Assembly (NCBI RefSeq): GCF_002264395.1 | Contig: NZ_NFVA01000026.1 | Location: 1-64,000 of the forward strand | Length of the DNA: 64,000 bases | Source of the DNA: Paenibacillus sp. VTT E-133291 | GTDB taxonomy: Bacteria > Bacillota > Bacilli > Paenibacillales > Paenibacillaceae | Reading direction: 5' to 3' | Shown: positions 1,718-30,089 of the stretch, in pieces | Numbering within the stretch: the stretch's first letter is position 1 | Layout: the number at the start of each line of letters is the position of its first letter | Notes under the pieces: generated by a model | What the model was told of the DNA's origin: nothing | What the model saw: the letters and a program-made list of their open reading frames with translations, nothing else | Databases searched by the model: none | Translations under genes and position numbers: made by a program

Positions 1718-2065
1718 ATTGTTCTCCCCCTTTTTATGGGCAGTGAAGCCCCATTTCTTTATATCCCTACCGACTGCTAGTGACTGGCAACCTGCAATAT
1801 ATTCCATAGTTATGTAATATATCAACTAAATGGATCGGGAATGAAGTGTTTGATACTATTCTATAGAATTAACCTCTGGATGAATAGTGAAAGTTTTAGT
1901 TTATAGAGCATATTTTTCTGAAAAAGATGAATTATTTCTGACACTTTTAATTTTAGTTAATAAAAATGGGTATAAATACCCATTTCATAAATTGTTTATT
2001 TTTATGGATTGTTTGACGACAGTGTGATAGAGTATTAATGTTTTGTTCCAAAACTTAATGTAAGC
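1718..2065. other. Intergenic region between divergent genes
   Basis: About 350 bases of AT-rich DNA between the chemoreceptor (leftward) and the transporter (rightward). It must hold both promoters. A weak candidate for the rightward gene is TTGTTT at about 2009 with TATTAA 18 bases downstream. I see no gene. Confidence 0.4.
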
Positions 2066-2107
2066 CGCGGTTCGTAACCATCCCGCGTAAACAAAACTAG
2101 GAGGAGT
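2066..2107 (+). promoter_or_regulatory. preQ1-I riboswitch overlapping the ribosome binding site
   Basis: The RNA begins CGCGGUUC, continues with a short loop, closes with CCCGCG to form a five-base-pair P1 stem (2066-2070 with 2083-2087), and then has an A-rich tail ending AAAACUAG (2093-2100) directly against GAGGAG. This is the preQ1-I layout: a GGUUC loop motif, a CCC closing strand, and an A-rich tail that docks into the P1 groove and pairs with the loop. The Shine-Dalgarno sequence lies immediately after the tail, so ligand binding would be expected to block translation. The regulated gene is a queuosine-precursor transporter, which fits the ligand. Confidence 0.85.
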
Positions 2108-2116
2108 TTAAGTAAT

Positions 2117-2830
2117 ATGTTTAATTTGATGTGGGGAGTTTTATTTGTTATTGTCAATTTTGCTTTTTTTCTGCTCTGTTACCGCCTGTTCGGCAAAAGT
2201 GGAATGTATGCCTGGGTAGGTATCGCTACTGTAATTGCTAATATTCAGGTAGCTAAGACGATTGCTATGCCATTTGATATCGTGATGACACTCGGAAATA
2301 CGATGTATGTCACTTTGTATATGACCAGCGATTTGCTTAATGAGAAATATGGAAGAGCAGAAGCACGAAAAGCGGTTTGGTTTGGTTTCTTCACCCTGCT
2401 TATGACGACAGTCATTATGCAGATGGTACTAGTATTTAAGCCACAAGAGACCGATATTGCTCAGTCTTCTTTGGAGACGATCTTTGGGCTGATGCCTCGA
2501 CTAGCGTTGGGTAGTTTAACTGCTTATTTCATTAGTCAGTTCCTAGATGTTCGGTTGTATTCCTGGATTCGCAAATATTACAGCACCTCAAGTCAGCTGT
2601 GGATCCGTTCGAACGGTAGTACGATGGTTAGCTCTTTTGTGGATACACTAATCTTCTGCACCATTGCATTTGCTGGGTTGTATAACTGGAGTGTGTGGTT
2701 TGAAATTTTGCTTACAACGTATCTGGCGAAATTCTTACTAACCGCAGTCGGCACACCTATCTTATATATCGCCCGAACTTTTACTTTTGCTGAAGATGGG
2801 GCATTATCATCCGCTCAAAAGAAAAATTAA
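2117..2830 (+). CDS. yhhQ: Queuosine precursor transporter, YhhQ/VUT family (COG1738)
   Basis: A 237-residue integral membrane protein with about six hydrophobic segments. Family traits include the segment LYMTSDLLNEKYGRAEARKA, where an acidic loop follows the second or third helix, and the late SFVDTLIF segment. E. coli YhhQ imports the queuosine precursors preQ0/preQ1, and the preQ1-I riboswitch directly upstream supports the same substrate here. The ATG at 2117 follows GAGGAG by about ten bases. YhhQ proteins work without an ATPase, so the ECF ATPases further downstream need not be its partners. A strong terminator follows, which makes this a single-gene unit. Confidence 0.9.
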   Translation: MFNLMWGVLFVIVNFAFFLLCYRLFGKSGMYAWVGIATVIANIQVAKTIAMPFDIVMTLGNTMYVTLYMTSDLLNEKYGRAEARKAVWFGFFTLLMTTVIMQMVLVFKPQETDIAQSSLETIFGLMPRLALGSLTAYFISQFLDVRLYSWIRKYYSTSSQLWIRSNGSTMVSSFVDTLIFCTIAFAGLYNWSVWFEILLTTYLAKFLLTAVGTPILYIARTFTFAEDGALSSAQKKN

Positions 2831-2842
2831 ACACAATACAGC

Positions 2843-2884
2843 CAGCGCGTACCGATCATAATCGATGCGCGCTGTTTGATTTTT
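2843..2884 (+). terminator. Rho-independent terminator after yhhQ
   Basis: CAGCGCG (2843-2849) pairs with CGCGCTG (2868-2874), with inner CGAT/ATCG pairing, followed by a T-rich tract. It separates the riboswitch gene from the next operon. Confidence 0.8.
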
Positions 2885-3039
2885 CCAGTCGTAAGAGGCT
2901 TAATCGTTCCATATAAATATGTACATAAAATTAATATAAAGCTAAAATAAGCTATCGTAGCCATTCCAATTGTATCCCATGCAATTCAGAGGTGTGCATA
3001 ATCGGTAGACACAGAAATTACGAACAGGTGTGATGAAGG

Positions 3040-4521
3040 ATGAATCTAGTAGTTCCTATACTGCGTCATGCAGCACAGCAGCCCGACAGTATTGCCTTAA
3101 CCCATAACCAAGCGGGTCATACTTATGCAACATTAGTACAAGCGATGCGGAGAATTGCGAATGGTCTACAGCAAAAGGGTCTGAGACATGACAAAGTCGC
3201 TATTTTATCTACGAATCGCATTGAATTTGTTGAGGTTTTCTTGGGGGCTATTTATGCAGGCTGTGTTCCCATCCCTTTAGATCCCAAGTGGAGTGCAAAC
3301 GAACTGCAGGTTATTATAGAGCAGTGCCAGCCGACAATGATTTTTGCCGAGCCGGAAGCTGCAAAGAATCTGGTCTTCAGGGAGCAAGCGATCCCAACAA
3401 TGATTTTTACAAAAGATCGGACAGGCTCCTATGATCAGTGGCTGGATGCGCTGAAGCCAGAAGCTGAATTGGATGAGACGAATGAATTATTATTTATCGG
3501 CTTCACTTCAGGCACAACTGGACTGCCCAAAGGATATATGCGTACCCATTTATCGTGGTTAAAGAGCTTTGAGGTATCGAGTGCTGCCTTTAAATTGGAC
3601 GCTATGAAGGATGTTTTAGCACCGGGTCCGTTTGTGCATTCGCTGTCCTTGTTCGCTGTAATGCAGAGTCTGTATGGCGGAGCAAACTTTCATATTACGC
3701 AAAAATTTAGCGCCACACAGGTGTTAGAGCTGTGCAAGCAGATTCCGGGTGTGGTGTTGTTTGTTGTACCGACAATGCTTGAATCCATGATGCGGCAGGC
3801 TGTTCCTGGGCAGACGCAGATTGATGCGATTATTAGCTCAGGTGCAAAGTGGTCGGAGTTGTCCAAAAAAAGGGGCATAGAAGTGTTCGCTGGAGCGCGT
3901 CTCTATGAATCCTATGGTTCCTCAGAAGCGAGTTATATTAGTTATTTGGATGTTCTGGAAGAGCATAATCCGAGCTCTGTAGGCAAGCCCTATCCCGGAG
4001 TACAAATTTCCATTCGTGATGAAGAGTTCCGTGAAGTCCCTGCGGGGGAGATTGGGCAGTTATATGTACGAAGTGATATGATATTTCTAGGCTATCATCA
4101 ATTGCCGAACGAGACTGCAGCAGCTTTTCGAGACGGATGGCTTATTTTGGAAGATAATGTTTATCAGGATGAAGCGGGGTACTTATATCTGGCAGGTCGT
4201 TTGAAAAATAGAATTATCACCGGTGGGCTGAACGTTTATCCAGAGGAAATAGAGCGAGTGTTAGAGCATCTTCCTGAAATAGAAGAAGTAATGGTGCTCG
4301 GCGTCCCTGACGATTTTTGGGGAGAACAGTTGGCCGTGCTCGTGAAATGGAATGGTGAAAAGCACTTATCTATAGACGAAATAAAGAATTATTGTCGCCA
4401 GTATTTAGCAAGCTACAAATCGCCGAAGCAGCTGCTGACAGTTGAAGAGTTTATTTATACAAGCAGTGGCAAAATTGCCCGGCAAGCGATGAAAGACTAT
4501 GTGAAAAGAGCGATGGTATGA
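3040..4521 (+). CDS. AMP-forming acyl-CoA ligase (YhfT-like)
   Basis: ANL-superfamily enzyme that would adenylate a carboxylic acid and load it onto CoA. The phosphate-binding loop TSGTTGLPKG is at residues 156-165. The hinge region with GRLKNRIITGGLNVYPEE and the C-terminal catalytic lysine (K478, in SSGKIARQ) are intact. At 493 residues it is of normal length. The stop codon overlaps the thiolase start by four bases. B. subtilis has the same ligase-thiolase pair as yhfT-yhfS, co-transcribed with a biotin S-component gene (established knowledge), so a link to short dicarboxylic or pimelate-like acids is plausible. The acid used cannot be read from the sequence. Confidence 0.88.
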   Translation: MNLVVPILRHAAQQPDSIALTHNQAGHTYATLVQAMRRIANGLQQKGLRHDKVAILSTNRIEFVEVFLGAIYAGCVPIPLDPKWSANELQVIIEQCQPTMIFAEPEAAKNLVFREQAIPTMIFTKDRTGSYDQWLDALKPEAELDETNELLFIGFTSGTTGLPKGYMRTHLSWLKSFEVSSAAFKLDAMKDVLAPGPFVHSLSLFAVMQSLYGGANFHITQKFSATQVLELCKQIPGVVLFVVPTMLESMMRQAVPGQTQIDAIISSGAKWSELSKKRGIEVFAGARLYESYGSSEASYISYLDVLEEHNPSSVGKPYPGVQISIRDEEFREVPAGEIGQLYVRSDMIFLGYHQLPNETAAAFRDGWLILEDNVYQDEAGYLYLAGRLKNRIITGGLNVYPEEIERVLEHLPEIEEVMVLGVPDDFWGEQLAVLVKWNGEKHLSIDEIKNYCRQYLASYKSPKQLLTVEEFIYTSSGKIARQAMKDYVKRAMV

Positions 4522-5669
4522 TAGAAGCAGTAATTGTTATGGCAAAACGTACACCGATTGGCAGGATGGGCGGCTTATTAAGTACATTTGAGCCGGAAGC
4601 ATTACTGGCGCCGCTTATTCAGCATATTGTGGCAGAGACGAGCCTAGCTAAAGAGATGATCGATGATGTCATTATTGGAAATGTGGTCGGTCCGGGTGGA
4701 AATATTGCCCGGGTCGCTGCGCTTGAAGCTGGGCTTCCTGTTTCGGTTCCGGGCGTTACTGTGGATCGGCAGTGCGGTTCTGGGCTAGAGGCTATTAATA
4801 TAGCAGCAAGGCTTATTCAAAGCGGTGCAGGTGAGATTTATTTAGCTGGCGGCGTTGAGAGCACGAGTCGTGCCCCTTGGAAAATGAATAAGCCCCAAAC
4901 CTTGATGGGGGTTCCACAGCTATATACCCGTGCTCATTTTACACCAAGCGCTTACGGTGATCCGGATATGGGGATTGCTGCGGAAAATGTAGCGCGGAAG
5001 TACGGGATTTCACGAGAAGAGCAGGATCAATATGCCTTAAAAAGCCACCAAAAGGCTGTTCATGCTCAGCAAAGCGGCCGGTTTCAGCAGGAGATTGTAC
5101 CTCTTCTGGTTGAGGGGGAGTGGGTGAACACCGACGAATGTCCAAGGGCCAATACGAGCTTGGATAAGCTGCGAATGCTCCCTTCAATTTTTGAAGAAAA
5201 AGGCACTGTCACCGCTGGAAATGCCTGTCCTATTAATGATGGTGCGGCGCTTGTATTAATGATGTCCCGTGAGAAATGTAGGGAACTCAAGCTTAACCCG
5301 ATTCTGCGTATCGTGGATGCGCAAGCGGCAGGTGTAGATCCGAATTATTTAGGTATGGGGCCCATTCCAGCTGTACAAAAGGTATTACATCGTCAACAGC
5401 TGACCATAGCCGATTTAGATATCGTAGAGTTTAATGAAGCCTTTGCTTCGCAAGTGCTAGCCTCACTGAATGAGCTTCAGATCCCACAGGAAAAGGTCAA
5501 TCGTGGAGGAGGCGCATTAGCTATCGGTCATCCATATGGGGCGTCCGGAGCTATTTTAATGACTCGCTTATGTGCTGAAATGCAGCATACGCCTTATAAA
5601 AGGGGACTTGCCACTTTGGGTATTGGCGGAGGTATCGGTTTGGCTACTCTTGTGGAGGCGGTAGAATGA
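4518..5669 (+). CDS. Thiolase family protein (YhfS-like) with the second catalytic Cys replaced by Gly
   Basis: A 383-residue thiolase-fold protein. The nucleophile C86 (in DRQCGSG), the NEAFA motif and H338 (in AIGHPYGASGA) are present. The cysteine normally found in the last motif (TLCIGGG in PhaA/AtoB enzymes) is Gly368 here (TLGIGGG, codon GGT at 5619). The H-to-C spacing of 30 residues matches the family, so the alignment is secure. In classical thiolases that Cys deprotonates the incoming acetyl-CoA, so this protein may use a different condensation, act only in cleavage, or be specialised. It overlaps the ligase (4 bases) and the next gene (4 bases), which indicates translational coupling. 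Confidence 0.9.
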   Translation: MIEAVIVMAKRTPIGRMGGLLSTFEPEALLAPLIQHIVAETSLAKEMIDDVIIGNVVGPGGNIARVAALEAGLPVSVPGVTVDRQCGSGLEAINIAARLIQSGAGEIYLAGGVESTSRAPWKMNKPQTLMGVPQLYTRAHFTPSAYGDPDMGIAAENVARKYGISREEQDQYALKSHQKAVHAQQSGRFQQEIVPLLVEGEWVNTDECPRANTSLDKLRMLPSIFEEKGTVTAGNACPINDGAALVLMMSREKCRELKLNPILRIVDAQAAGVDPNYLGMGPIPAVQKVLHRQQLTIADLDIVEFNEAFASQVLASLNELQIPQEKVNRGGGALAIGHPYGASGAILMTRLCAEMQHTPYKRGLATLGIGGGIGLATLVEAVE

Positions 5670-6067
5670 ACAGCATTCATCATCAGATTTATGTGACTGC
5701 GGAGTGGATATCGGATTATGCACATAGTATTGAGGCACCCGTGCAGACGTATAAGGGCAATCTGATTGCTCCTTCTACGATGCCTATTATTTTTTGGCAG
5801 GCCTTCGATATTCCTTGGCTTAGCAAGGGAGAGCCTTTGCTTCATGGCACTCAGAAATTCTCATATCAAGCACCGATTACGGCAGGGATGACGTTAGATT
5901 GTGAATTAGCATTAACGAGCAAGGCGCAAAAAGATGGCCGGCAGGGCCAACTGACCTTTTACACACATACGCTGGTTTGTAAATGTGAAGACGAGCTTAT
6001 AGTCACCGCAGAAACAGTGTTAATTCGGGTAGGTGATGATCATGATGAGAAAATGTATAACGGCTGA
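5666..6067 (+). CDS. MaoC/hot-dog dehydratase subunit, N-terminal-domain type
   Basis: A 133-residue single hot-dog protein resembling the N-terminal half of MaoC/FAS1-like dehydratases, the non-catalytic partner in HadAB-type enzymes. It has no visible hydratase D-x4-H motif. The start ATG overlaps the thiolase stop, and the 3' end overlaps the next gene, a catalytic-type MaoC domain. I infer that the two products pair into one (R)-specific enoyl-CoA hydratase / 3-hydroxyacyl dehydratase. A thioesterase role for this subunit cannot be excluded. Confidence 0.72.
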   Translation: MNSIHHQIYVTAEWISDYAHSIEAPVQTYKGNLIAPSTMPIIFWQAFDIPWLSKGEPLLHGTQKFSYQAPITAGMTLDCELALTSKAQKDGRQGQLTFYTHTLVCKCEDELIVTAETVLIRVGDDHDEKMYNG

Positions 6068-6383
6068 GGCCATCCGGCTATATGCAGCAGCTTCCCAAGA
6101 TCTGGCCGCGATTCATCTAGATGAGGATGCAGCAGCTAAGGCTGGATTTAAGCGGCCCATTGCGCAGGGGATGTATCTAATGGGATTAGCCCAATCCTTA
6201 TATATCGAGGAGCATCAGGCACAGTGGATCACTCAGTATGAGATGAAATTTCATCAGCCTGTTGAGGTCGACAATGTTGTGATGTTTGATTATGCAGATG
6301 ATGATGCTCTTGTGAAAGTGACCCTTACAACAGAAGCTGGCGATGTTATTGCTACGGGAGCTTTTTCAGTGAAAGAGGTGTAG
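6042..6383 (+). CDS. MaoC-like (R)-specific enoyl-CoA hydratase, catalytic subunit
   Basis: A 113-residue hot-dog protein carrying a recognisable hydratase-2 segment: YAAASQDLAAIHLDEDAA, with the catalytic Asp and His spaced as in the consensus SGDxNPIH, and the usual PIAQGM segment after it. The start is taken at the ATG at 6042, six bases after AGGTG; the preceding GTG and ATG are less well placed. It overlaps the upstream gene by 26 bases. It would hydrate 2-enoyl-CoA or, in the biosynthetic direction, dehydrate 3-hydroxyacyl-CoA. Its partner is probably the preceding subunit. Confidence 0.8.
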   Translation: MMRKCITAEAIRLYAAASQDLAAIHLDEDAAAKAGFKRPIAQGMYLMGLAQSLYIEEHQAQWITQYEMKFHQPVEVDNVVMFDYADDDALVKVTLTTEAGDVIATGAFSVKEV

Positions 6384-6385
6384 TG

Positions 6386-7207
6386 ATGAACAAAGTAGCC
6401 TTAATTACTGGAGCAACCAGAGGGATCGGGCGTAGTATTGCCGTGCAGCTCGGCAAGTCCGGTTATATAGTGGTTGTAAATGGTACAAAACAAGTCTTGA
6501 TCGATGAAGTTGTCCACGAGATTCGACAGGCAGGTGGTGAAGCATTAGGCTACTCTGCTAATGTAGCAGATCCAGTCGCGGTCTCGGTAATGGTAGATGA
6601 GGTTATTGCTCAATACGGTCGTATTGAGGTGTTGATAGCGAACGCTGGAAATTTACAAGATCAGAAATGTCTACGGATGACGGATGAAGAATGGAAGGCT
6701 GTGCTGGATGTGCATTTAAATGGTGCCTATTACAGCATTCAACGTGTACTGCCACATATGCGCCAGACAGGTGGTGATATCCTGTTGATGACCTCAACGG
6801 CTGGATTAACAGGTTCTGTCGGTCAGGTGAATTATAGTGCAGCCAAGGCTGGAATACTCGGAATGATGTGGACTCTCGCAGCGGAGCTGAAGGGCGATGG
6901 AATTAGGGTCAATGCGATTTCACCAGCCGCGTTAACGGATATGACCAGACCTGTCATTGATCACTTGAAAGTGAAACATGCCAGCCGTAATGAACCGTTC
7001 CCGGAGTTCTGGCGAATAGGTGCTCCAGAGGATATTGCTTCTTTCGTAAATGCATTATTGAGCGAGAACGATGCGGATTTAACCGGTGAAATCTTTGCTG
7101 TGAATGGATCAAAAGTGACGAAATGGGAGAAGCCTGCACCTGCATTTTCTGAGAACAGCATCGGGGCATTTTTCGCTACGTGGCACCGTCAAAAGGGGAG
7201 TGAATAA
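6386..7207 (+). CDS. SDR-family 3-oxoacyl reductase / 3-hydroxyacyl dehydrogenase
   Basis: Classical short-chain dehydrogenase of 273 residues: cofactor loop TGATRGIG near the N-terminus, NAGN, catalytic Ser in MTSTAGL, and the Y-x3-K pair in NYSAAK. The order Ser-Tyr-Lys is intact. It resembles FabG and the multifunctional beta-oxidation dehydrogenase family, and its position between a MaoC hydratase and acyl-CoA enzymes fits interconversion of 3-oxo and 3-hydroxyacyl-CoA. The ATG at 6386 has a good GAGGTG site. The C-terminal 40 residues after the fold (about 235-273) are an extension of unknown purpose. Confidence 0.87.
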   Translation: MNKVALITGATRGIGRSIAVQLGKSGYIVVVNGTKQVLIDEVVHEIRQAGGEALGYSANVADPVAVSVMVDEVIAQYGRIEVLIANAGNLQDQKCLRMTDEEWKAVLDVHLNGAYYSIQRVLPHMRQTGGDILLMTSTAGLTGSVGQVNYSAAKAGILGMMWTLAAELKGDGIRVNAISPAALTDMTRPVIDHLKVKHASRNEPFPEFWRIGAPEDIASFVNALLSENDADLTGEIFAVNGSKVTKWEKPAPAFSENSIGAFFATWHRQKGSE

Positions 7208-8008
7208 ATGCTTACCTTCGATCAAGTTCATTTTTATTATAAAAGGGATCAGCCTGTCCTAGAAGATATCAGCTTTACGATAAATGCAGGTGAGTTTGTG
7301 GCGATTGTTGGCGCGAATGGCTCTGGCAAATCCACCATTGCAAAGCTCATGGATGGTTTGTTGCTGCCTCGAAAAGGGTCGATACAGTTTAAGGGCCTAG
7401 ATACCGCAAAGCCAGCTGAGCTTGCAGATATTCATCAGCAAATTGGCTTTGTTTTTCAGAATCCAGAGGATCAATTTATCACCACAACCGTTATGGATGA
7501 GGTGCTTTTTGGTTTGGAGAACCTTCGTGTGCCAAGGGAGGAAATGCGCAGCCGATTGGAGTATGCCTTGCAGGCTGTTCATATGGAGGATTATCTGGAC
7601 GTGATGCCACATCAGCTCTCTGGAGGTCAGAAGCAACGTGTCGCTATTGCGGCTATATTGGCGATGCGCCCGCAAGTCATTATTTTCGACGAAGCCACCT
7701 CTATGCTTGATCCTCAGGGAAGGCAGCAGGTGCTTGCTATTATGCAAGAGCTGCATCGTCAAGGTCTGACCATTATTCAGATCACTCACCATATGGAGGA
7801 AGTGCTTTCAGCAGAACGATTATTACTCCTGCATCAAGGGCGACATGAGTATGATGGTGCTCCACTGGCCTTTTTTAAAATGATGCCTGTTGCGGACTAT
7901 CAATTACAACTACCCTTTGCCGTGCGCGTACATGCATTGCTACATTCAGCAGCGCCGCCAACAGCAGATTGGAAGGGGAACATTCGATCACAATGGTCTA
8001 CCAATTAG
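7208..8008 (+). CDS. ECF transporter ATPase, EcfA1 type
   Basis: Cytoplasmic ABC ATPase of an energy-coupling-factor transporter. Walker A GANGSGKST, Q-loop FVFQNPEDQF, signature LSGGQKQR and Walker B VIIFDEATSMLD are all intact. It starts directly after the SDR stop and overlaps the second ATPase. Housekeeping ecfA genes normally sit by the ribosomal protein rplQ; this extra copy is instead inside an acyl-CoA operon, which suggests a dedicated module. The 266-residue product is of normal length. Confidence 0.92.
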   Translation: MLTFDQVHFYYKRDQPVLEDISFTINAGEFVAIVGANGSGKSTIAKLMDGLLLPRKGSIQFKGLDTAKPAELADIHQQIGFVFQNPEDQFITTTVMDEVLFGLENLRVPREEMRSRLEYALQAVHMEDYLDVMPHQLSGGQKQRVAIAAILAMRPQVIIFDEATSMLDPQGRQQVLAIMQELHRQGLTIIQITHHMEEVLSAERLLLLHQGRHEYDGAPLAFFKMMPVADYQLQLPFAVRVHALLHSAAPPTADWKGNIRSQWSTN

Positions 8009-8850
8009 ATAATTTAAGTGTAAACTATGCTGATCATATAGCTTTACACAATATTAACTGCACTATTACTGCGGGCAAATGGATTTCGATTATCGGTCCC
8101 ACGGGCGCAGGAAAGTCTACCTTTGTCAAAGTGCTGAAGGGCTTGATTCCCAGCGTAAAAGGAGATTACTCCATTGATCATCAGCCTGCTCCCAGAGATG
8201 CCAAAGGACAATTAAAGGTGGTCCCGGAGCTGGGCTTCGTGTTTCAATATCCGGAGCATCAGCTATTCGAAACCACAGTGCAAAAGGAGCTTGCTTTTGC
8301 TCTGAATCTGCAGGGTGCTTCACGCCAGCAAATCACGGAGGCGATTGAAAGGATTTTACCGCAAGTGGGTCTGTCAGAGGGCATTCTCCCGTTAAATCCA
8401 TTCCAACTAAGTGGTGGAGAAAAGCGCCGTGTGGCCATTGCCTCCGTGCTAATGACGAATCCTAAGCTGCTAATTTTGGATGAACCGACAGCTGGGCTAG
8501 ATCCTGCTAGTCAAGTATCCTTGCTGAAGCTACTAAAGACTTGGCAGCAACAAAATCAGCGCACCATTCTCTTCGTTTCGCATCAGATGGAGGATGTTGC
8601 TGAGTACTCGGATGAGGTTTTGGTTTTCCATAAAGGTCAGCTGGAAGGACATTTTGACCCCAGAACACTATTTATAGAAAAGGAAGAATTATTGGTGGAG
8701 CTGGGCTTGTCCATACCTGAACCCGTACAGCTTTTGAAGCTAGTAGAGGAATTATCCGGTCAAAAAATTGAGATTGCTAGCTGTAAAGAGCAGGATATCT
8801 TCGATGCTGTTCTGCCCATTTGGCATTCGAGGGGGCGTCAACATGACTGA
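7993..8850 (+). CDS. ECF transporter ATPase, EcfA2 type
   Basis: The second ATPase of the ECF pair, 285 residues from the ATG at 7993. A GGAAGGGGAA ribosome site lies 12 bases upstream, and a TTG at 7969 is a weaker alternative. Walker A GPTGAGKST, Q-loop FVFQYPEHQLF, signature LSGGEKRR and Walker B LLILDEPTAGLD are intact. It overlaps EcfA1 by 16 bases and EcfT by 8 bases. It should form the A1A2 heterodimer that drives EcfT and a substrate-binding S subunit. Confidence 0.92.
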   Translation: MVYQLDNLSVNYADHIALHNINCTITAGKWISIIGPTGAGKSTFVKVLKGLIPSVKGDYSIDHQPAPRDAKGQLKVVPELGFVFQYPEHQLFETTVQKELAFALNLQGASRQQITEAIERILPQVGLSEGILPLNPFQLSGGEKRRVAIASVLMTNPKLLILDEPTAGLDPASQVSLLKLLKTWQQQNQRTILFVSHQMEDVAEYSDEVLVFHKGQLEGHFDPRTLFIEKEELLVELGLSIPEPVQLLKLVEELSGQKIEIASCKEQDIFDAVLPIWHSRGRQHD

Positions 8851-9649
8851 TTCCGTAATTGTGGGTCAATATGTGGAGACGCATTCGATTTTCCATCGTT
8901 TAGATCCCCGTACAAAACTTGTTAGTATCATGATTCTCATGCTTAGCTTTCTGATGCTTGGAACAGGGCTTAGCTATGCAGTTGCAACCTTTTTTGTAAT
9001 CGGAATTTTACTGCTGTCAAAGGTTCCTATTCAATTCTTTTGGCGAGGACTACGGCCGCTATTATTTATTTTGCTGTTTACCTTCATGTACAATGCCGTG
9101 TTCACCAAAGGAACGATTATCCTCTGGTCTTGGTCATTTATTGAGGTAACAGAAGAGGGACTGCGAACAGGATTACGTTTTGTTTGGCGTATTGTATTGC
9201 TCATCTTATTAGCCTCAGTATTAACGTTAACAACTAAACCGCTAGACTTAGCATATGGTCTTGAAAAGCTGCTTGCACCTCTATCCAAAATGGGGGTGCC
9301 CGTAGAACAATTCTCCTTAATGATAGTGATTGCGATCCGGTTTATTCCTACCATCAAGGAGGAGCTGGATCGTATTCTTCTCGCACAAAAGGCTAGGGGG
9401 TATGATCTTACAGCATTATCACTGCCTAAACGGATATTTGCTTATGTCCCGATTATTATTCCTTTGCTCTTCACGACGATTCAACGTGCTGAACAGCTAA
9501 GCTATGCGATTGATGCGCGTGCTTATGGAAATGGTAAAGGAAGAACTTCTTATAGGGTATTACAATTTCAGCAAATGGATTATCTGGCAGGGGGAATTGC
9601 TCTTTTATTTGCTGTGATTCTGCTGTGGTTAAAGATAGGAAAGGTATAG
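8843..9649 (+). CDS. ECF transporter transmembrane subunit EcfT
   Basis: Integral membrane coupling subunit of 268 residues from the ATG at 8843. It follows GAGGGGGCG and overlaps the EcfA2 stop. Several hydrophobic segments lie in the first 150 residues. The cytoplasmic coupling helices carry the two Ala-Arg motifs of the family (AQKARGYDL and IDARAYGNG). It links the A1A2 ATPases to an S subunit. No S-subunit gene is present in the operon. Confidence 0.9.
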   Translation: MTDSVIVGQYVETHSIFHRLDPRTKLVSIMILMLSFLMLGTGLSYAVATFFVIGILLLSKVPIQFFWRGLRPLLFILLFTFMYNAVFTKGTIILWSWSFIEVTEEGLRTGLRFVWRIVLLILLASVLTLTTKPLDLAYGLEKLLAPLSKMGVPVEQFSLMIVIAIRFIPTIKEELDRILLAQKARGYDLTALSLPKRIFAYVPIIIPLLFTTIQRAEQLSYAIDARAYGNGKGRTSYRVLQFQQMDYLAGGIALLFAVILLWLKIGKV

Positions 9650-10621
9650 ATGAATATGAAATGGAATACCCGTATTACGGAGTTATTGCAGATAGAGTAT
9701 CCTATTATTCAAGGCGGGCTTGCTTATTTAGGTTATGCAGACCTTGCAGCTGCCGTTTCGAATGCCGGTGGATTGGGTCAGGTTACAGCGATGAGTCTTC
9801 CGAGCGCAGAGGCTTTATGTTCAGAAATAGAACGGGTTCGTACTTTGACCGACAATCCATTTGGCGTTAATTTTGCCATCGGTGTGCATGGTATCGGTTA
9901 TGAAGATCGGGTGCAGGTCGCCATCGACGAGAAGGTTCCCGTGGTGAGTCTCACTGGTGGGAATCCGGCCCCTATACTGGAAATGCTACAGCACACTGAT
10001 ATTAAAACGCTCGTGCTCGTCTCTTCACGCAGACAAGCCCAAAAAGCTGAACAATTAGGTGCTTCTGCGGTTATTGTTGTTGGGCAGGAGGGAGGAGGCC
10101 ACTTGGGGCGTGATGATGTAGGGACTATGGTACTCGTTCCTCAAGTAGTGGATGCGGTTGATATTCCTGTGATTGCTTCAGGCGGGATCGGGGATGGCCG
10201 CGGATGGATGGCGGCCCATGCACTGGGGGCTGAGGGAATTGAAATGGGCACACGATTCGTTGCTACGGTTGAATGTGTTCATGCAGCTGCTTCTTATAAA
10301 AAAGCCCTAGTAGAAAGCTCAGAGTCAGATACAGTCGTAATCAAACGCTCTATTGGAGCACCCGCGCGAGTGCTGCGTAGTGAGTACATAGATAAGATTC
10401 TCGACATTGAGCGTGTGACTCCGACCTATGAAGCCTTAAAAGAATATATTAGCGGTGCAGCCAACAAGCGCTGGATTTATGATGATGTCAAAGAAGAGGG
10501 CATTGGCTGGGCAGGCCAAGTGACAGGGATGATCCATGATATCCCTACAGTCTCGGAACTGATGGGCAGGATGGTCAAAGAGGCAGAGTCGATTCGCGGG
10601 ATGTGGGGAACACAGGCGTGA
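9650..10621 (+). CDS. FabK/nitronate-monooxygenase-like flavoprotein, candidate enoyl-CoA reductase
   Basis: A 323-residue TIM-barrel FMN enzyme of the 2-nitropropane dioxygenase/FabK family: QGGLAYLGYADLAAAVSNAG at the N-terminus, the His-containing flavin motif QEGGGHLG in the middle, and ASGGIGDGRG further on. Family members are nitronate monooxygenases, FabK enoyl-ACP reductases, or acyl-CoA-acting enzymes such as mycobacterial IpdC. The context (ligase, thiolase, hydratase, ketoreductase) favours an enoyl-CoA reductase, which would complete a chain-elongation cycle. This is inference. It starts directly after the ecfT stop and is the last gene of the operon. Confidence 0.8.
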   Translation: MNMKWNTRITELLQIEYPIIQGGLAYLGYADLAAAVSNAGGLGQVTAMSLPSAEALCSEIERVRTLTDNPFGVNFAIGVHGIGYEDRVQVAIDEKVPVVSLTGGNPAPILEMLQHTDIKTLVLVSSRRQAQKAEQLGASAVIVVGQEGGGHLGRDDVGTMVLVPQVVDAVDIPVIASGGIGDGRGWMAAHALGAEGIEMGTRFVATVECVHAAASYKKALVESSESDTVVIKRSIGAPARVLRSEYIDKILDIERVTPTYEALKEYISGAANKRWIYDDVKEEGIGWAGQVTGMIHDIPTVSELMGRMVKEAESIRGMWGTQA

Positions 10622-29237: not shown

Positions 29238-30089
29238 CTAGTTTCCGGGGAGTTGGATGCCGCGCCACCCGCTTACATCGCATTGACCCTGTTCGTGATT
29301 ACCCACAGCAACCACGGTACCGTCCGATTTAAGACCGATGGTATGAGTGCAACCTGCCGCTACGGCCACCATATCGCGCCAGTCACTTATATTGCATTCG
29401 CCGTACTTATTCCAACCCACAGCAACCACGGTACCATCTGATTTAAGACCGATGGTATGATGACTGCCTGCCGCTATAGCCACAATACCATGCCAGCCGT
29501 TTACATTGCATTGGCCTTCATGATTTCGACCCGCAGCAATCACCGTACCGTCCGATTTAAGACCGACTGTATGAAGGTAACCCGCCGCTATAGCTATTAT
29601 GTCATGCCAATCATTTACATTGCGTTGGCCATACCGATTATTACCCACAATTGTCACCGTGCTGTCCGATTTAAGACCGACTGTATGCCAATCACCAGCC
29701 GCAACTGCTACTATATCACGCCAGTCACTTACATTGCATTGGCCTTCATTATTTCGACCTACAGCAACCACGGTACCATCCGATTTAAGCCCGACGGTAC
29801 GACGCCAACCCGCGGCAACCCTCACAATATTAGTCCAGTCGCTTACATCGCATTGGTCATACTTATTCCAACCCACAGCTGCCACCGTACCATCTGATTT
29901 AAGCCCGACGGTATGAGCATTACCGATATGAGCATTACCCGCAGCAACCGCTATCATATCGCACCAGCTGCTTACATCGCATTGGCCATATTTATTATCA
30001 CCCACAGCCGTCACCGTGCCGTCCGAATTAAGCAGGGCGGTATGACGATAACCCGCTGCAATGGAGGGTAGGGTTTTCACAAGGTTCAT
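29238..30089 (-). CDS. RCC1/BLIP-II-like seven-repeat beta-propeller protein
   Basis: A 283-residue protein built from seven tandem repeats of about 38 residues with the theme VAAGxxHTVGLKSDGTVVAV followed by Gly-x-Asn-x3-Gly-Gln-Cys-x-Val-Ser-Asp-Trp. Seven repeats suggest a closed seven-bladed propeller like RCC1 or the beta-lactamase inhibitor BLIP-II. No signal peptide or membrane helix is seen, so it is probably cytoplasmic or leaderless. Blade 2 has a five-residue insertion from a 15-base tandem duplication (29912-29941). It is likely a protein-binding scaffold; the partner is unknown. Nearly every repeat has a Cys. Confidence 0.85.
   Translation of the reverse strand: MNLVKTLPSIAAGYRHTALLNSDGTVTAVGDNKYGQCDVSSWCDMIAVAAGNAHIGNAHTVGLKSDGTVAAVGWNKYDQCDVSDWTNIVRVAAGWRRTVGLKSDGTVVAVGRNNEGQCNVSDWRDIVAVAAGDWHTVGLKSDSTVTIVGNNRYGQRNVNDWHDIIAIAAGYLHTVGLKSDGTVIAAGRNHEGQCNVNGWHGIVAIAAGSHHTIGLKSDGTVVAVGWNKYGECNISDWRDMVAVAAGCTHTIGLKSDGTVVAVGNHEQGQCDVSGWRGIQLPGN
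29912..29941 (-). repeat. 15-base in-frame tandem duplication in the RCC1-like gene
   Basis: The plus strand carries TATGAGCATTACCGA followed at once by TATGAGCATTACCCG. In protein terms GNAHIGNAHT repeats the GNAH part. It looks like a recent slippage event. Confidence 0.85.

Follow-up and report, generated by a model that had tools for sequence, protein, structure and literature searches.

The window analysed here is a 64,000-nucleotide stretch of Paenibacillus sp. VTT E-133291 (contig NZ_NFVA01000026.1, positions 1–64,000; source genome G000, a 285-contig assembly of 7.08 Mb). Nine plus-strand genes at 3040–10621 encode an acyl-coenzyme A (CoA) ligase, a thiolase-fold condensing enzyme, two hot-dog proteins, a ketoreductase, the three-gene core of an energy-coupling factor (ECF) importer and a flavoprotein. 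Our preferred, though tentative, reading is that this operon is the body of a bioY-ligase-thiolase-hadA-hadB-ketoreductase-ecfA1-ecfA2-ecfT-fabK biotin-import operon whose own bioY was deleted, and that its enzymes salvage biotin with a shortened side chain.

Linkage to bioY, birA and ECF genes

All nine open reading frames (ORFs) were confirmed, and neighbours overlap or abut without a gap; the thiolase gene lies directly 3' of the ligase gene and shares 4 bases with it (Table 1). Gene order is kept across many genomes, and every gene is under purifying selection, with ratios of nonsynonymous to synonymous substitution rates (dN/dS) of 0.05–0.27 against three relatives by a simple Nei-Gojobori estimate; the operon is thus a real functional unit, and on the same values we reject a decaying remnant. 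An earlier note, made from the sequence alone, had named nine genes and their families, which ORF listing, Pfam and NCBIfam bore out. The likeness of the ligase-thiolase pair to Bacillus subtilis yhfT-yhfS also held, in that PRK07638 and PRK06690 are resembled below their cut-offs. Its FabK/NMO label stood as to the FabK-like family but not as to FabK itself, whose cut-off is far from reached (276 of 453 bits).

The ligase was found in 38 of 100 same-genus genomes, 30 of which have bioY immediately 5' of it (all but G000, G001, G007, G023, G096, G102, G103 and G119), and birA is divergent from the operon bioY in many of them. Psychrobacillus has a bioY-headed set through to ecfT, Fictibacillus has bioY-ligase-thiolase-hadA-hadB, Bacillus sp. 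BHET2 has bioY-ligase-thiolase-SDR (SDR, short-chain dehydrogenase/reductase), and B. badius and B. wudalianchiensis have bioY-ligase-thiolase. In alphaproteobacteria, bioY stands ahead of ligase-thiolase in all ten ligase loci read, several of which also have ATPase and T-component genes preceding the pair. G016 (locus L168) carries an enzyme-free bioY-ecfA1-ecfA2-ecfT unit, so we assign the ECF core to BioY; between the window and L168 copies, ecfA1, ecfA2 and ecfT agree at 72, 74 and 70%, respectively. In the relatives, the enzyme block is flanked by bioY and ecfA1, and fabK closes the operon. The bioY-ecfA1-A2-T unit is seen in G016 and relatives, while in the window EcfA1, EcfA2 and EcfT have no adjoining BioY. 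The earlier note had tied the ECF core to uptake of a related vitamin or acid and proposed a comparison of gene neighbourhoods; with bioY heading homologous operons, often divergent from birA, the predicted link between operon and biotin is confirmed and strengthened.

In the window operon, bioY was deleted in place. Positions 2781–2993 and 2988–3100 match the two ends of the intact bioY in L213 (92% and 94% identity, respectively), with a 209-base gap in the window from which the bioY body is gone and its final three codons and stop retained. In G112, a near relative whose ligase is 93% identical, the order is queT, bioY, ligase, and the ligase tree, which has long branches outside the genus, nests it in the window clade with good support. 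In G119, G007 and G001, bioY is absent with differing break points, a 70-base stretch being left in G001. From the position of G112 and these break points, bioY was lost at least twice, unless G112 regained it. The enzymes and ECF genes are still under purifying selection despite the loss. Because bioY was deleted, the window operon has no S-component gene; the sole BioY gene of the genome lies in trans on contig 191, divergent from a birA that encodes biotin ligase and helix-turn-helix domains. A second ECF core occurs on contig 268 (L249 2959–6077), where a PF07456 gene (heptaprenyl diphosphate synthase component I family) precedes it at the S-component's place. In G112, a ligase fragment (L221 526–885; 43% over 67 residues) follows a birA-linked bioY, which suggests that two operon copies once coexisted.

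Upstream regions were scored against the Bacillota BirA operator, with two half-sites 12–18 apart and 13 of 16 matches required, a threshold chosen after the scores were seen. It was reached by 28 of 33 Bacillota bioY upstream regions, the remainder being L018, L025, L030, L206 and L213; the 33 count one genome twice (L024 = L197) and include ligase-free L001 and L168, and L026 and L019 are one genome. For 23 of the 28 regions, no shuffle out of 200 did as well; for each of the remaining five, between 1 and 9 did. Exact matches are more telling by placement than by count: 10 of 12 directly precede bioY or a bio operon, the others being at G001 3695050 and on G008 contig 14. G010 has none, and the single exact site of G000 is at bioY, between bioY and birA. 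None of four alphaproteobacterial regions reached the threshold, nor did any of three ligase-upstream regions lacking an operon bioY (window, L014 and L015). BirA-box-like sites of the kind that the earlier note had proposed looking for in homologous operons are thus present in relatives and not at the window operon. In the available text of PMC6391492, and likewise of PMC7235819 and PMC11089781, yhfT-yhfS of Staphylococcus aureus is BirA-repressed, and in that of the first two the pair is described only as putative.

The condensing enzyme and its partners

In an alignment with solved thiolases, Cys86 (the nucleophile), Asn306 and His338 are retained in the window protein, which has Gly368 at the position of the second catalytic cysteine of the two aligned thiolases; it passes the TIGR01930 subfamily cut-off, yet does not have both cysteines of a thiolase. 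Among 52 distinct thiolase-fold proteins, the second cysteine is missing in all 48 that are ligase-linked, from two phyla (37 Cys-Asn-His-Gly, 9 Cys-Met-His-Ala, 1 Cys-His-His-Ala and 1 Cys-Asn-His-Ala), and is present in three of the four unlinked ones, a small control, the fourth having Leu. Replacing this cysteine by glycine in the Zoogloea thiolase reportedly all but abolishes condensation because deprotonation of acetyl-CoA is lost. A malonyl thioester losing CO2 to give a carbanion would bypass the missing residue. A search of open-access literature listings for thiolases lacking Cys378 with malonyl-CoA gave no description of this system, which is weak evidence of novelty.

Ligase Lys270, in the motif SGAK or SGGK, occurs in at least 90% of relatives of both phyla (FadD13 has GGAP) and hints at a common, unusual substrate without naming it. 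In the HadB-like protein, Asp23 and His28 (counting from the GTG start), five apart, are invariant in eight aligned rows, and the profile matches are HadB, R-specific enoyl-CoA hydratases and HtdX; the profile of the HadA-like protein gives weak matches (E 0.02 to 0.36), all of them to HadA or UPF0336-family chains, and the best solved relative of the FabK-like protein is a FabK chain. The set fits a ligation step followed by condensation, reduction of the 3-keto group, dehydration and reduction of the enoyl product, as the earlier note had predicted.

That note had held a catabolic role to be the main alternative, but the gene set speaks more for reductive chain lengthening than for catabolism. 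That the operon degrades the biotin side chain, or some unrelated acid, by beta-oxidation, a pathway with which it shares ligase and thiolase types, strikes us as very improbable: the operon has no acyl-CoA dehydrogenase, with an R-type hydratase and a FabK-like reductase instead, the second thiolase cysteine is missing, and a BirA operator would turn the operon on in scarcity rather than in excess.

For salvage of shortened biotin, the steps would be as follows. BioY (encoded beside birA) and the ECF core of the operon would import biotin and probably related vitamers, and the ligase would activate the carboxylic acid. The thiolase-fold enzyme, without the base that deprotonates acetyl-CoA, would condense the activated acid with a two-carbon unit, most simply derived by decarboxylation of malonyl-CoA or malonyl-acyl carrier protein (ACP), as in ketoacyl-ACP synthase III (KASIII) and BioZ. 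Reduction by the SDR, dehydration by the HadAB-like pair and reduction by the FabK-like flavoprotein would complete one lengthening cycle. Imported bisnorbiotin (one round) or tetranorbiotin (two rounds) may thus be re-lengthened to biotin, which would then have to be released in free form. Both compounds are products of biotin beta-oxidation, and soil bacteria make bisnorbiotin. With a little more reserve, we propose that this is a new form of vitamin salvage, in which auxotrophs would rebuild the valerate chain through a decarboxylating synthase, with the widespread yhfT-yhfS pair at its core.

Bisnorbiotin is a real biotin metabolite according to the human data in the available part of PMC9106636, and lone bioB with desthiobiotin is a precedent for vitamer salvage by auxotrophs in that of PMC9561691. 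Searches of open-access literature listings for bacterial re-use of bisnorbiotin, and for an operon that joins ECF, biotin, acyl-CoA ligase and thiolase genes, turned up no description of this system; this is weak evidence of novelty, as subscription papers were mostly outside the search.

Distribution relative to biotin synthesis genes

Among the 38 same-genus ligase genomes, 34 were read with wide flanks and four (G079, G102, G103 and G116) over 4.5 kb only. The full set from ligase to fabK was found in 20 readable genomes and in the fragmented draft G023, whose nine genes lie in pieces and which we counted as a full set (21 in total). Of the other 13 wide-flank genomes, three are short of fabK only and two of both fabK and the hot-dog pair; three retain ligase and thiolase, four have ligase, bioY and ECF genes, and G096 has the ligase alone; these absences were rechecked by tblastn.

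BioB scored over its cut-off in 27 of 100 genus genomes: in none of the 21 with the full set and in 27 of the other 79 (Fisher p = 0.0007), or, by ligase, in 2 of 38 versus 25 of 62 ligase-free genomes (p = 7e-5; kinship ignored in both tests). The four narrow-flank genomes have no BioB, and counting them as full-set gives 0/25 versus 27/75 (p = 0.00015). Ligase and BioB occur together only in G096, with a bioADBFHC-like operon, and G123, with bioB and no other bio gene nearby. BioA matches at E 1e-90 were found in 66 of the 100 genomes, only 5 being over the cut-off and none of these full-set; BioA-like aminotransferases of 310–354 bits were rejected as falling under the 405-bit cut-off. BioD was over the cut-off in none of the 11 full-set genomes tested, nor in Psychrobacillus (set minus fabK), which also has no BioB. 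In the window genome, no BioB, BioD or BioA was above cut-off. BioB-like matches of ~100 bits were likewise rejected as below cut-off; several genomes have such a match ~9 kb from that of a ~490-residue radical-SAM protein, an arrangement expected of HydE and HydG.

Since the hosts of the full set have no BioB, its substrate must already carry the biotin ring if the product is biotin. The role favoured in the earlier note, in which glutaryl-CoA or a comparable diacid would be extended to pimeloyl-CoA to feed biotin synthesis, is highly improbable here, as a pimelate precursor cannot become biotin without BioB. It would account for the biotin link, and the ligase lysine shared among relatives could bind a second carboxylate; in the available text of PMC11089781, BioZ acts analogously on glutaryl-CoA and malonyl-ACP, and the B. 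subtilis pimelate source is stated to be unknown. Against it stand the absence of BioB, and of BioA and BioD over cut-off, in the full-set genomes described above, the loss of thiolase and all reducing enzymes in G096 and G123, and the single BioB among ten alphaproteobacterial bearers. For yhfT-yhfS in prototrophs, a pimeloyl-CoA route is possible.

The main rival to salvage, although unlikely in our estimate, is lipid adaptation to biotin shortage, in which, as biotin and with it acetyl-CoA carboxylase runs low, BirA would release bioY together with enzymes that activate and lengthen or remodel fatty acids, sparing malonyl-CoA. It is consistent with BirA control of yhfT-yhfS in S. aureus in the available text of PMC6391492, with the BirA-box-like sites in relatives and with the best NCBIfam names, which are generic acyl-CoA synthetases. 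Sparing malonyl-CoA needs an acetyl-CoA thiolase, however, and the base cysteine is gone from every distinct linked copy (48/48); nor does this explanation predict the genus-wide confinement of the complete set to BioB-free genomes. Quite unlikely is that the ligase is a trap, holding imported biotin or a vitamer in the cell as a CoA ester, with the other enzymes as additions. The ligase is present in every reduced version, including four bioY-ligase-ecfA1-A2-T genomes, as a trap would have it, but the complete condensing and reducing set conserved in 20 readable genomes is left unexplained, and BirA uses free biotin.

Several observations weigh against salvage of shortened biotin, chief among them the ligase-only operons and the abridged sets that coexist with BioB. 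L205, L209, L245 and L246 have bioY-ligase-ECF without the thiolase or the rest (tblastn), and the ligase may have a purpose alone, because ligase-only operons keep it under selection (ligase dN/dS 0.18–0.27 among L204, L205, L245 and L246, and 0.20 for L209 versus L203). Shorter versions occur in BioB genomes (Fictibacillus and three Bacillus), and there is no contrast in alphaproteobacteria, where BioB was found in 1 of 10 bearers and 3 of 16 non-bearers, the latter being ligase-free genomes from the order of G067 and some genomes being metagenome bins. The bioB anti-correlation in the genus takes no account of relatedness. A BirA box is missing at the window copy, L014, L015 and L213, and L018, L025, L030 and L206 are below the threshold; the exact pattern gives 12 sites in ten genomes versus 6 for the reversed control, so exact-pattern counts alone mean little. 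The shared Lys270 of the ligase might equally serve to bind a second carboxylate, the operon has no conserved thioesterase that might release biotin, and the enzyme functions are predictions from sequences in which no feature is specific for the biotin ring. As to a thioesterase, an alpha/beta hydrolase ORF lies after fabK on the opposite strand in the window and L248; it was rejected as a conserved candidate, being absent in L014, L015 and L213.

BioB was also seen without BioA in 22 genus genomes (all five BioA genomes are among the 27 with BioB), the pattern expected of desthiobiotin salvage. Of the 9 BioB genomes among 37 from the genus in which bioY was looked for too, 8 have no bioY. A further bioY, distant in sequence (~30% to that of the window genome), adjoins bioB in L112 and L114 (Fictibacillus and Bacillus sp. 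BHET2), which looks like desthiobiotin uptake plus conversion. Lone bioB in the genus occurs mostly in genomes without this operon and looks like an alternative strategy to it.

Neighbouring features and known systems

Table 1. Coordinates of the operon genes, their upstream neighbours and CHY zinc-finger ORFs of other loci.
Feature	Sequence	Coordinates	Strand	Evidence
PreQ1 riboswitch, neighbour outside the operon, ahead of queT	window	2061..2106	+	Rfam RF00522, 42.7 bits, above gathering score
queT/yhhQ-type queuosine-precursor transporter, neighbour	window	2117..2830	+	TIGR00697, 194.5 bits, above cut-off
Terminator-like hairpin with T-rich tail, between queT and operon	window	2839..2885	+	fold of 2838–2885, -21.2 kcal/mol
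Scar of deleted bioY	window	2988..3008	+	ribosome-site-like AGAGG, then last three codons and TAG of bioY (2997–3008)
Acyl-CoA ligase, YhfT-like, AMP-binding	window	3040..4521	+	PF00501, PF13193; PRK07638, 435.1 of 518 bits, below cut-off
Thiolase-fold condensing enzyme, YhfS-like	window	4518..5669	+	PRK06690, 435.6 of 498 bits, below cut-off
HadA-like hot-dog protein without catalytic Asp-His pair	window	5666..6067	+	PF13452; HadA match weak
MaoC-type hot-dog hydratase/dehydratase, HadB-like	window	6045..6383	+	PF01575; alternative upstream GTG start at 6033
FabG-like SDR ketoreductase	window	6383..7207	+	PF00106, PF13561; TIGR01830, 202 bits, below cut-off
EcfA1 ATPase of probable biotin ECF importer	window	7208..8008	+	TIGR04520, 320.8 bits, above cut-off
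EcfA2 ATPase	window	7993..8850	+	TIGR04521, 267.7 bits, cut-off of 330 not reached
EcfT membrane component, CbiQ family	window	8843..9649	+	PF02361
FabK/NMO-type flavin mononucleotide (FMN) enoyl reductase candidate	window	9650..10621	+	PF03060; TIGR03151, 275.6 of 453.1 bits, below cut-off
CHY zinc-finger ORF	L017	12174..12497		
CHY zinc-finger ORF	L025	16605..16910		
CHY zinc-finger ORF	L168	9432..9737		
CHY zinc-finger ORF	L196	4556..4903		
CHY zinc-finger ORF	L198	5173..5496		
CHY zinc-finger ORF	L199	11030..11353		

Read-through from the preQ1-riboswitch/queT unit into the operon is disfavoured by the strong T-tailed hairpin between them; this is not proven, as a pattern scanner for terminators, restricted to other stem and loop forms, listed none between queT and the operon. 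A gene for a small CHY zinc-finger protein (PF05495, tested on the L199 copy) lies directly 3' of ecfT in several operons, including the enzyme-free one; no copy was seen within the opening 12 kb of the window. Farther along, an ORF of repeated 'VAAG..HTVGLKSDGTVVAVG' units (window 29238–30089, minus strand) is RCC1-like by eye.

BioY-linked ligase-thiolase pairs such as yhfT-yhfS are already known, and the window operon extends a known, unexplained module. Like the BirA-regulated bioY/yhfT-yhfS of B. subtilis and S. aureus, it combines a BioY-linked ligase and thiolase with BirA boxes in relatives. This likeness was drawn through equivalogs and B. wudalianchiensis, whose pair beside bioY passes PRK07638 and PRK06690, which are among the two best NCBIfam matches of the window pair. 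Unlike that module, the window operon adds a HadAB-like pair, an SDR, a FabK-like reductase and a dedicated ECF core, and it lies in a BioB-free genome with the operon bioY and visible BirA box lost. An ATPase and a T component next to BioY are shared with alphaproteobacterial loci that have a downstream ligase-thiolase pair (L031–L034 and L241; ABC_tran and CbiQ matches in L032) and that carry what we take to be the biotin ECF transporter BioMNY, but those loci have one ATPase, against EcfA1 and EcfA2 in the window, and no reducing enzymes.

In outline, the proposed route resembles the BioZ pathway, with an activated acid, a condensation that would be decarboxylating, fatty acid synthase-type reduction and a biotin context. 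The BioZ product is 3-ketopimeloyl-ACP from glutaryl-CoA and malonyl-ACP, and BioZ is FabH-like, whereas the window has a thiolase-fold enzyme minus one cysteine; because its hosts are without BioB, the set is not a pimelate route here. The hot-dog pair resembles the mycobacterial (3R)-hydroxyacyl dehydratase HadAB in its adjacent small genes, only one of whose products has the catalytic Asp-His, although similarity is low and far below the HadA and HadB cut-offs. As in desthiobiotin salvage by lone bioB, an auxotroph would retain a fragment of biotin chemistry for a vitamer, but lone bioB inserts sulfur, while side-chain extension is proposed here. No description of the complete set or of the missing thiolase cysteine was found in the open-access literature searched, which is weak evidence of novelty.

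A thiolase-fold family without the base cysteine in two phyla is of interest in itself, and the occurrence of a full reaction set in hosts unable to use pimelate narrows the candidate substrates. If salvage is true, soil bacteria could draw on breakdown products as a source of the vitamin, and auxotrophy assigned on bioABDF alone would have to be re-examined.

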